Shown piece after piece: positions 27,717-30,942 of a stretch of 51,008 nucleotides of DNA. The stretch is from positions 73,017-124,024 of the forward strand of contig JAUYBG010000005.1 in NCBI GenBank assembly GCA_030693205.1, read 5' to 3'. The notes under the pieces are model-generated. The model was given only the letters and a program-made list of their open reading frames with translations, had not been told where the DNA came from and made no database searches. Source of the DNA: a bacterium (GTDB lineage Bacteria > Patescibacteriota > Minisyncoccia > JAHIHE01). The position numbers and the translations under genes are program-made. Each line of letters begins with the position of its first letter. Within the stretch, counting starts at the first letter, position 1.

Positions 27717-29402
27717 ATGAAAATTTTTAATAAACAAAATTTATCCAGCGGGGTTAAAAGCGGTTTAACCGTTCTAATCTCGGTCTTGATTATTTTTACG
27801 GTTGTTAAAGGCGGCACTATCACGCCGCCTTCCGGCGGAGGCGAACCAAGCGCGAAGTTTTATACTATTTCGGAAATTTACAATTTTATTGCTAGTAATA
27901 CTCCGGCAACCGAGGGCGCGCATAGTTTTACTTTCTCGGACAACTTGGAAGGAACCGGCCGCACTTTGACCGAAATTTACAATGCTTTGGCCGGCTTGAT
28001 TTCCGCTAACCAAGTTAAAAAGGATACGATTTATCTCGGGAAGACCGGCACGCTTGTGCCTTCGGGCGGCGATGCCTCGCCTGACTATGTTTTAAGCGGC
28101 AAGACATTTTTTGGCGGTTCGCAGGGGGATTGGAATTTGCAAACTGGTTCAATGGCAAATAATAGTAGTTTTGGTTTGATTTGCGGCGCCTCCAATCAAG
28201 CAGTTACAGCAGGTTATTATAGCGGCGGAAATTTGCCCGGCGATGTGGATTTAATTGCTGGAAATATCAAATCTGGCGCTAATATTTTTGGAGTTTCGGG
28301 CAATTCAAATGTAGTTAACACTTCTTCGGGCGACGCTATTGCTGGTAATATTTTAACTGGTAAAAAAGCCTGGGTGGCCGGTTTAGAGATTACAGGCAGC
28401 GTGGCGGCTGGAGCTAATGTTTCCGGAAGTAACAGCTTGTTGTCGTTCAACATTCCCGATGGTCTTTATTCCGGTTCAAAAACTTGCACCGCTAGCGATA
28501 CTAATTTAGTGGCGACTAATATCGCTTCAGGTGTGGATATTTTTGGAGTTTCGGGCACGCTTCTGAAAAATCTTTATAATGGCACTAGCCGGTTCGGATC
28601 TCTCGTCACTGTAACCCTGAATGCCGGAGGATCCGGATACACTAACGGCGCGCAGGTTTTGACAGTTGTTCAAACAAATGGCAGTCTCGGAACCGTGAAT
28701 GTTACCGTAAGCGGAGGAACGGTTATTTCAGTTGATTCAATCGTCGAAGCAGGAGTTGGATATATAGTGGCAAATAGTTTGGCAACTACCGGCGGAGGCG
28801 GTACATTGGCAAAGGTAAATATAACCGCGATCAGTTCGGATTATCCTATAAACACAGGAGGAGTGGATGATTATAATGATGATGGAACTATGCCTGCTGA
28901 TAGCTATGCCGCAATATGGACAACCTGTAATGTTGGGAATAATTATTGCGATACTGGCGCAATTAACGCTACTAACGCAGATAAAAAAGACAACAGCACC
29001 GGCTTGGTGTGGTCAATTAGAACAGGTACTAGCAGTTGGTTCTCGGCCAATAATTGTAAATATCCAAACCAACTTCTTGGAGACGACGGAGCCTGCGGCA
29101 CTCATGGCGAAATCGCTTGTAAGTGCGTAAAACAGTCAGCAGGAAGCATGACTGGATGCGAAACTTTAGGAGCGGCGGTAGCGGGAAATAGCGGCGGATG
29201 GCGTTTGCCTAGCCAGAAAGAACTGATGCAAGCGTATATCAATGGTTCCTGGGGCAATCTATCTTCAGCCGGTTACTTTTTTTGGTCAGCTACTACTACT
29301 TCCCACACCACGTTCAGCGCCTGGTATACGTACTTGGGCACCGGCCCTACGGATACCACTACTAAGACCAGTACTACCGTCAGTGTTCGTTGCGTTCGTT
29401 AG
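27717..29402 (+). CDS. Membrane-anchored repeat protein with C-terminal DUF1566/C-type-lectin-like domain (candidate DGR variable protein)
   Basis: A surface protein of 561 aa. An N-terminal hydrophobic segment (about residues 13-31) acts as anchor or signal. Repeats with IAGNIKSGANIFGVSG-like units fill residues 140-300. A Gly/Thr/Val-rich beta region follows, and then a C-terminal DUF1566-like domain with TGLVWSIRTG, SGGWRLPSQKELMQAYING and FFWSATTT, ending in SVRCVR. Residues 519-561 are dominated by Thr/Ser/His/Phe/Tyr in NNY codons, as expected when Asn AAY codons of a template are adenine-mutagenised. Together with the facing reverse transcriptase this suggests a diversified ligand-binding surface protein. 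Confidence 0.8.
   Translation: MKIFNKQNLSSGVKSGLTVLISVLIIFTVVKGGTITPPSGGGEPSAKFYTISEIYNFIASNTPATEGAHSFTFSDNLEGTGRTLTEIYNALAGLISANQVKKDTIYLGKTGTLVPSGGDASPDYVLSGKTFFGGSQGDWNLQTGSMANNSSFGLICGASNQAVTAGYYSGGNLPGDVDLIAGNIKSGANIFGVSGNSNVVNTSSGDAIAGNILTGKKAWVAGLEITGSVAAGANVSGSNSLLSFNIPDGLYSGSKTCTASDTNLVATNIASGVDIFGVSGTLLKNLYNGTSRFGSLVTVTLNAGGSGYTNGAQVLTVVQTNGSLGTVNVTVSGGTVISVDSIVEAGVGYIVANSLATTGGGGTLAKVNITAISSDYPINTGGVDDYNDDGTMPADSYAAIWTTCNVGNNYCDTGAINATNADKKDNSTGLVWSIRTGTSSWFSANNCKYPNQLLGDDGACGTHGEIACKCVKQSAGSMTGCETLGAAVAGNSGGWRLPSQKELMQAYINGSWGNLSSAGYFFWSATTTSHTTFSAWYTYLGTGPTDTTTKTSTTVSVRCVR
29271..29402 (+). other. Candidate variable region (VR) of a diversity-generating retroelement
   Basis: The last 43 codons of the lectin-like gene. 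Between the conserved FFWSA and VRCVR ends, most codons are ACY, AGY, TCC, CAC, TTC, TAC, GAT or GTC, which are single-site derivatives of AAY. The 3' boundary GTTCGTTGCGTTCG is GC-containing and A-free, fitting an IMH-type end. No adenine-rich template copy was found in the window. Confidence 0.6.
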
Positions 29403-29474
29403 TTCTGGCAACAATCCAGCTTCAATTTTGGTTTCGCTAAGCTTCTTGCTAAGGAATTTCAATGATATTTTTTT

Positions 29475-29574
29475 GTCATTTCGAATCCGTCAACAGACGA
29501 TGAGAAATCACTTGTACTCACTATTTTTGTGTGTTTAAGGGATTCCTCTTTGCCTGCTGGCAAATCGGAATGAC
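29475..29574. repeat. 100-bp MITE/REP-pair-like element
   Basis: Near-perfect terminal inverted repeats GTCATTTCGA (29475-29484) and TCGGAATGAC (29565-29574) bound an internal palindrome (TGCCTGCTGGCA). No coding capacity. It sits between the variable protein and the convergent reverse transcriptase. Confidence 0.6.
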
Positions 29575-29634
29575 AGAAATAAAGACTTAGTGCCGATAGG
29601 TTTAATTTGCTTTTTAAAATATTGAAACAGTTTT

Positions 29635-30942
29635 TTAATCCTCGTCCCAGACAAAATAACCGTAATTTTCATCTGCCGGAATCAGATAAATCTTTAAAAT
29701 TCCAAAATGTTTTTCAAAGAGCGACTTTTGTAAATTATAGCAATCAGCGTGCTTGAAAAATCCGTAAACTGAATTAATTGACGAAAAAATATGGCGGAAA
29801 TTTTCTAAAAATTCCGGGTTGGCGAAAATAATAAACGGATCGTCAAAAATCATATCGCAAGCGCGCGGCGTATTATTCGGAGAAAGCGAGTCTAATATTT
29901 TTTTATTGAATTGCCATAGTTTGTTCTTTAGTTTTTTCACGGTTCGCCGCCGGATAAGCGCATAGCCGGGTTTGATGATATAGCCGCAAAAATTGATGCC
30001 ATTTATCGCCGGCTGAAGAATTTGTTTTTTAGGATGGAGCTTGAGCTTCAGGCGGGTTTCAACGAAATTATTTATATCATCTTTCCACAGAAGCAGCTGT
30101 TCTTTTGAAGAATGAAGCAGCAGCAGATCGTCCATATAGCGGAAATAATATCGGCATTTGAGAGAATGTTTAACAAATTGATCAAGCTCATTCAAATAAA
30201 TATTGGCGAAAAACTGGCTGGTCAAGTTGCCGATCGGCAGACCGCAATCATTTTTGCCAAAAAGCGATTTATGCGGCGGTACGGAAGCGAGCAGTTTCAG
30301 ATCGCCCTTGGCGAAGTAATTTTTGGTCGGATCATGGAAAATTATTTTTTCAGTGAGCCATACGATTTCAGGATTTTTGATATATTTTTTGACAAGAGAA
30401 GACAAAACATCTTTATTTATACTGACAAAAAAGCTTTGAATATCCGCTTGGAGAAAAAATAAGCTTGGAGAGATTGTTTTGTTAAGATAGCAGATAGCCT
30501 TGTGGGCGCCTTTTTCCCGCCGGCAAGCATACGAATGAAAGATAAACATTTTTTCCCATATGGGCTCAAGACGGCTGACAAGCAAATGATGGACGACTCT
30601 GTCGCGAAAATCAGCGGCCCAGACCTCGCGCAATTTGGGATCGGTAATGGCAAAACAGATAGAGCGGCCGGATTCATAAGTATGGCGCTGGAGCTCTTCC
30701 TCAAGTTTCAAAAGCTCTCTTTCAAAATTTATTTCAAATTTTGCCGCGCTTGAGCTTTTTCTTTTTGTTTTTCGGCATCGATAATAAGCCCCTAAAAGAT
30801 TTTGAAAAGAAAAAACATCTGAGCGCGGATTTACTCTCTCTCTCTCTCTCTCTCTCTCTCTCTCTCTCCCTCCCTCTCTCCCTCTCTCTCTCTCTCTCTC
30901 TCTCTCGTTGCGGTGTTCGGATTTTGTGATATTATTTGTCAT
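29635..30942 (-). CDS. DGR-type reverse transcriptase with (GA)n-encoded N-terminus
   Basis: RNA-directed DNA polymerase of 435 aa. In order: SYACRREKGAHKA (about 137-149), LQADIQSFFVSI with the first catalytic Asp (D167), GLPIGNLTSQFFANIYLNEL (234-253) carrying the [IV]GN-x-x-SQ motif typical of DGR enzymes, the YMDD box (269-272), and INFCGYIIKPGYALIRR. No maturase, endonuclease or CRISPR domain is seen, arguing against a group II intron. Residues 12-36 are Glu-Arg/Gly repeats encoded by a GA microsatellite. No alternative start exists between the repeat and the RT core, so translation must cross it. Convergent with the lectin-like target gene. Confidence 0.9.
   Translation of the reverse strand: MTNNITKSEHRNERERERERGREGGRERERERERERVNPRSDVFSFQNLLGAYYRCRKTKRKSSSAAKFEINFERELLKLEEELQRHTYESGRSICFAITDPKLREVWAADFRDRVVHHLLVSRLEPIWEKMFIFHSYACRREKGAHKAICYLNKTISPSLFFLQADIQSFFVSINKDVLSSLVKKYIKNPEIVWLTEKIIFHDPTKNYFAKGDLKLLASVPPHKSLFGKNDCGLPIGNLTSQFFANIYLNELDQFVKHSLKCRYYFRYMDDLLLLHSSKEQLLLWKDDINNFVETRLKLKLHPKKQILQPAINGINFCGYIIKPGYALIRRRTVKKLKNKLWQFNKKILDSLSPNNTPRACDMIFDDPFIIFANPEFLENFRHIFSSINSVYGFFKHADCYNLQKSLFEKHFGILKIYLIPADENYGYFVWDED
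30834..30906. repeat. (TC)n microsatellite in the 5' coding end of the reverse transcriptase
   Basis: A 73-bp almost pure CT/TC tract (GA on the coding strand), interrupted by CCC triplets around 30868-30882. Gain or loss of one dinucleotide would frameshift the reverse transcriptase. Confidence 0.95.

Follow-up and report, generated by a model that had tools for sequence, protein, structure and literature searches.

Simple repeat tracts at the start of the reverse transcriptase (RT) gene or of the accessory gene avd probably make the diversity-generating retroelements (DGRs) of Patescibacteria phase-variable, so that the diversification machinery itself would be a contingency locus. We give this reading a probability of about 0.78. 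The system was analyzed in a 51,008-nt stretch of DNA (the window) of a member of the Minisyncoccia (Patescibacteriota; JAHIHE01; GenBank assembly GCA_030693205.1, contig JAUYBG010000005.1, positions 73,017 to 124,024), where a DGR-type RT gene faces the gene of a membrane-anchored target-type protein and opens with a long GA repeat. The first-pass annotation of the window missed this repeat, which proved to be the most informative feature of the locus. The case was built from sequence, namely from the site of the tracts, their enrichment, the start codon upstream of them, the mixed frames, the intact OFF genes, the changes of length, the interchange of repeat types and the occurrence in two RT clades.

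Of 384 genomes of the class searched with a profile, 155 had an RT of the window kind, and a genome collection added 80 loci. A simple repeat stood at the start of rt or of a divergent avd in 84 of 108 distinct class loci (74 poly-G with lengths of 8–13, and 10 GA), which is not a class-wide frequency because the loci were ranked by similarity to the starting profile. No repeat unit has a length that is a multiple of three, and the tracts lie in the leader or in the 5′ part of the coding sequence. Within the same loci, 86 tracts were counted in 16 kb of RT/avd start sequence versus 7 in 451 kb elsewhere, which means an approximately 345-fold higher density. A pair of template repeat (TR) and variable region (VR) was found in 94 of the 115 loci tested. 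Short-read assemblies are error-prone at simple repeats, but it is extremely improbable that errors of assembly or sequencing produced the tracts: dozens of independent assemblies of differing origin have them at the same site, the rest of those contigs is nearly free of them, and viral DGR-type RT loci, which were assembled likewise, had a tract in 0 of 79.

Which gene carries the tract depended on the RT clade. In the main Patescibacteria clade, avd is divergent from rt, head to head with overlapping 5′ ends, and the tract (poly-C) falls in the first codons of avd, after an ATG and a few bases ahead of the conserved body. The proteins encoded by these avd genes match the Avd family (phrog_3206, PF22296). 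The conserved avd ATG is the complement of an RT histidine codon, and this codon was CAT in 84 cases and CAC in 3, whereas the codon of another conserved histidine was CAT in 28 and CAC in 52 (p = 7e-19). Where avd lies farther from rt, the tract remains at the avd start ((GT)8 in locus L024, G9 in L190 and L198). The avd frame was analyzed in 86 loci: 18 were in frame with the upstream ATG (ON), 60 were without any start codon and 8 were ambiguous, and the avd bodies 3′ of the tract were intact (median 120 codons). In the clade of the window RT, avd is located elsewhere and the tract is in the RT gene, with the frame ON in the window, in a paralogous locus of the same genome (contig C10) and in L094, and OFF in L087. 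The L016 RT contains an internal (GA)8, and it is precisely there that its reading frame breaks in two.

The tract length and the frame also varied among close relatives, as judged by comparison between species. The closest pair had (GA)6 in the ON frame (L193) and (GA)8 in the OFF frame (L202) with an RT identity of 91%, and their avd codons differed by 12 synonymous and 4 nonsynonymous changes. L062 carried G9 and was OFF, while L165 carried G10 and was ON, and L014 and L167 had (GA)11 and G11, respectively, at one and the same site. The mostly synonymous avd change in the closest pair, together with the 60 of 86 avd genes that are intact yet without a start codon in their present frame, would also suit a rheostat in place of a DNA switch, in which transcriptional slippage or ribosomal frameshifting lets every tract length yield some in-frame product. 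But reversible DNA switching likewise keeps OFF genes intact, GA and poly-G tracts behave alike here, and dinucleotide tracts are not known to be slippage sites for RNA polymerase, so we consider the rheostat improbable. Three further pairs (L078/L172, L176/L179 and L207/L215) had RTs with 86–90% DNA identity and more than half of their avd codons different; in these pairs, avd either evolves much faster or is exchanged.

On the RT strand, the tracts are purine-rich in every case, and main-clade tracts are found between TR and RT, inside the likely DGR RNA. Both facts would be explained if the tract were a fixed RNA or DNA element instead of a frame switch, for example a G-quadruplex, a ribosome-binding stretch rich in purines or a segment of the DGR RNA upstream of the RT. 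However, G, GA, GT and mixed tracts substitute for one another at one site, the tract moves along with the avd start, its length varies without preserving the frame, and the window clade has the tract although its TR is not upstream of RT. This makes a fixed element unlikely, although less so than the rheostat. On the RT tree (built by FastTree, local supports only), the window clade of 7 rows (support 83) stood apart from a mainly patescibacterial clade of 102 rows (support 99), so the tract arrangement probably arose at least twice.

From the phase-variation reading, we infer that slippage would be frequent in living cells and that the frame would set the level of Avd or RT protein and hence gate diversification. 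A slipped-strand change in tract length would shift the frame of avd in the main clade or of rt in the window clade, the frame shift would switch mutagenic retrohoming on and off reversibly, and targeted hypermutation would thereby become a bet-hedged, mostly-OFF trait. An OFF avd should silence the DGR, because PMC6642488 gives Avd as essential for cDNA synthesis in the DGR of phage BPP-1. The broadest form of the proposal is likely too, if a shade less so than phase variation as such: random slippage switches across Patescibacteria, located within the first codons of either avd or rt, would occur in two or more RT clades and, in single cases, at the 5′ end of a target gene outside Patescibacteria (Nitrospinota L101, (TCAG)12), and would gate DGR hypermutation, with most assembled genomes OFF.

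Several observations weigh against phase variation. The avd gene was ON in just 18 of 86 loci, so the OFF state would have to be favoured or some avd expressed in another way. About 50 of the 84 tract loci have an RT ATG 3′ of the tract, and therefore only avd would be switched in them. No tract was present in the scanned interval in 24 of the 108 class loci, of which 3 had a tract at a displaced avd start instead. Moreover, the survey frequencies come from a similarity-ranked sample and are not class-wide, and all tract lengths were taken from assembled consensus sequences.

Repeats of other kinds or at other positions were also recorded. Among all loci, 13 of 26 (GA)7+ tracts (some loci overlapping) were followed by GTAAA, at RT starts, in target leaders and inside the L016 RT. 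The (TCAG)12 of L101 lies near 2323 at the 5′ end of a DGR target open reading frame (ORF), and L092 (Magnetomicrobium) has (TCTA)20 near 378, upstream of the target region; both are possibly phase-variable DGR targets outside Patescibacteria. L017 and L153 carry (GATG)8 and (TGGA)8 approximately 1010 nt past the RT NLL motif, at the 3′ end of the RT gene or close to it, and in L017 the repeat encodes the RT C-terminus (DGWMDGWMDGWK).

The first-pass annotation described the RT of the window as convergent with the target gene, with YMDD and IGNLTSQ motifs, without maturase or endonuclease and of DGR type, and all of this held. The protein matched RVT_1 (PF00078, 1.3e-15), contained FRYMDD and GLPIGNLTSQ, and had no maturase or endonuclease domain. 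Its family profile matched 8ub7 (BPP-1 DGR RT) best in the PDB (8e-64), and the same search gave group II-type RTs at 4e-36 and retrons at 3e-9 or weaker. The match to an RT family of PHROGs was at 1.5e-111, and the tree placed the window RT among RTs from loci with TR/VR pairs. Thus, these comparisons, with retrons and group II-type RTs among them, put the window RT in the DGR family. Assignments as retron, DRT or group II RT were tried and rejected: the NCBIfam matches were all under cut-off, the PADLOC matches were weak and scattered across many RT families, and these RTs fell as outgroups (long branches) on the tree. Because no start codon occurs between the tract and the RT core in the window or on C10, the RT start is placed upstream and the tract is translated. 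In the 1.0-Mb genome, (GA)7+ was present at just three sites, namely the starts of both RT genes and the C10 target leader, and no poly-G9 tract of this genome was located at an RT gene. The coordinates of the window features are listed in Table 1.

Table 1 Features of the partial DGR in the window (positions counted from the first nucleotide of the window)
Feature	Position	Strand	Remark
Promoter-like site of target leader	27522..27550	+	TTTGCA, 17 nt, TG-preceded TATAAT; consensus scan
Leader ORF, 35 aa (MIRQNYQYISVVCLKYARESKRDSPSF...)	27557..27664	+	Short (GA)4 GTAAA tract at 27607-27614
Terminator-like hairpin ahead of target gene, AAAGCGTC-T8-GACGCTTT	27663..27686	+	Consensus scan
DGR target-type gene, 561 aa, N-terminal membrane anchor	27717..29402	+	Lcl_C at C-terminus
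Variable region (VR)	29268..29402	+	14/14 AAY codons of the homologous L087 TR are NNY here
232-bp gap between target and RT, without Avd or TR	29403..29634	.	Relatives have both there
DGR-type RT, 435 aa	29635..30942	-	ATG 5′ of tract in frame (ON)
(GA)12, 14-bp interruption, (GA)17 in first RT codons	30835..30906	-	Read ERERER...GREGGRERER

The target-type gene ends, as annotated at first pass, in a DUF1566-type domain: Lcl_C (PF07603, 1.1e-11) covers residues 424-561 of the product, and the terminal residues are SVRCVR. The target of L087 (Nomurabacteria) likewise ends in Lcl_C (KVRCVR) and has AAY-derived variable codons, but, unlike the window, L087 has its own Avd and true TR. Compared with this TR, the window VR had the first or second base altered and a pyrimidine as the third base in each of the 14 AAY codons, and the amino acid was retained in 23 of the 31 remaining codons, so the window gene has most likely been diversified by a DGR. 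Adenine-directed change was thus seen in the window target, indirectly, through the L087 TR.

A TR for this VR was not found. A search of the window for A-biased repeat pairs (mismatches on template adenines) gave low-complexity matches only, the VR 3′ end searched in the 1.0-Mb genome with 3 mismatches allowed matched only itself, and blastn of the VR against its own genome gave chance matches only. Neither the window nor, by the VR 3′ end, the genome showed a TR differing at template adenines. No Avd-like gene adjoined the window RT, as the first-pass annotation had noted. The claim that the locus is a DGR therefore stands only in part: the DGR RT and the mutagenized VR are there, but the DGR is incomplete because TR and Avd are absent.

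A complete DGR is located on contig C10 of the same genome. It comprises a 554-aa target, Avd (phrog_3206, 5.6e-25), TR and RT, so that RT, Avd, TR and VR occur together in this NEVERTHELESS DGR, and its TR and VR (a 60-nt pair was found) differed solely at TR adenines. The C10 RT also opens with a long (GA)n tract. The window and C10 loci are paralogs, with a common target N-terminus, RTs that are 61% identical and a WGENIGW-repeat neighbour in both. The best explanation of the window is hence a partial DGR, a target with an A-mutagenized VR plus a DGR RT, paralogous to that of C10. The Avd gene and TR were either lost from between target and RT or collapsed in the assembly between VR and TR. 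For the window alone, the chance that this is a DGR in decay or collapsed by the assembly, with a functionless RT and a leftover tract, falls only a little short of even. No TR for its VR was found anywhere in the assembly, the C10 TR, when tested on the other VRs of the genome, matched its own VR only, and the VR end forms a border of the missing block, which is what VR-TR recombination or collapse would produce. However, the RT ORF, the catalytic motifs and the tract of the window are intact and in frame, and the tract pattern in the relatives is independent of the window locus. The facing orientation of target and RT, considered less usual at first pass, turned out to be common to C10, Doudnabacteria L085 and Peribacter L094.

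Upstream of the target gene, the TATGCTATAATATA motif of the promoter-like site recurs ahead of the C10 and L085 leaders. Leader ORFs with their own (GA)n-GTAAA tract were observed in the window (27557-27686), at C10 (in L003, ~13600-13770, minus strand) and in L085 (7993-8010), and the tracts were (GA)4, (GA)8 and (GA)9, respectively. In the window and C10, the target leader ORF runs up to a terminator-like hairpin, and the stop codon of the window ORF abuts the stem. The window hairpin by itself was no stronger than shuffle expectation, and an Rfam scan gave no match at the window locus. The hairpin is a possible attenuator candidate, and leader tract and hairpin together are possibly a phase-variable attenuator.

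On the other side of the RT, a Bro-N protein gene (30999-31868) lies between RT and the WGENIGW protein; it matches the PADLOC candidate defence family PDC-S13 (3e-120) and is missing from the C10 paralog. The WGENIGW-repeat protein is a single 818-aa ORF at C10, whereas in the window (31852-34024) it is broken into two frames near 32650-32800, with no simple repeat at the break.

The BPP-1 DGR (mtd-avd-TR-brt) shares with these loci the RT family and the Avd family (phrog_3206, PF22296), and the A-specific TR-to-VR differences with C10 and relatives. It differs in that its genes and TR share a strand and avd precedes TR, whereas here RT faces the target or avd diverges from rt; in addition, the window lacks TR and Avd, and no tract is known in BPP-1. 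The main text of Roux et al. (2021, PMC8144416) describes a DGR clade restricted to Patescibacteria (clade 2), the same hosts as here. The 102-row clade very likely corresponds to this clade 2, while the window RT is in another clade. That main text makes no mention of phase variation, homopolymers or frameshifts, and text searches in two other DGR papers (one of them PMC6642488) returned nothing on these subjects.

The contingency loci of Neisseria, Haemophilus, Campylobacter and Helicobacter are similar in that their 5′ coding region contains repeats, poly-G or of short units, with a start codon upstream; all three frames occur among relatives, and the OFF genes are intact. They differ in that they mostly encode surface antigens or modification enzymes, whereas here targeted-hypermutation machinery carries the repeats and switching is deduced from sequence. 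Our literature search, which left most subscription papers outside, returned no paper joining DGRs with slipped-strand mispairing, and no earlier report of phase-variable DGRs was found among papers naming both DGRs and phase variation, as judged by title and abstract. The novelty of phase-variable DGRs is therefore probable but not certain.

DGRs alter recognition proteins very rapidly. If the phase-variation reading is true, a random heritable switch on avd or rt would be a simple answer to how the host controls them, since most cells would keep their functional receptor unchanged and a small number would try out variants. The OFF frame would predict which assembled DGRs are inactive, and recent VR diversity would be expected alongside ON alleles. 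Such a switch would bring together two classical forms of programmed variation in bacteria whose lives presumably hinge on recognizing other cells at the surface.
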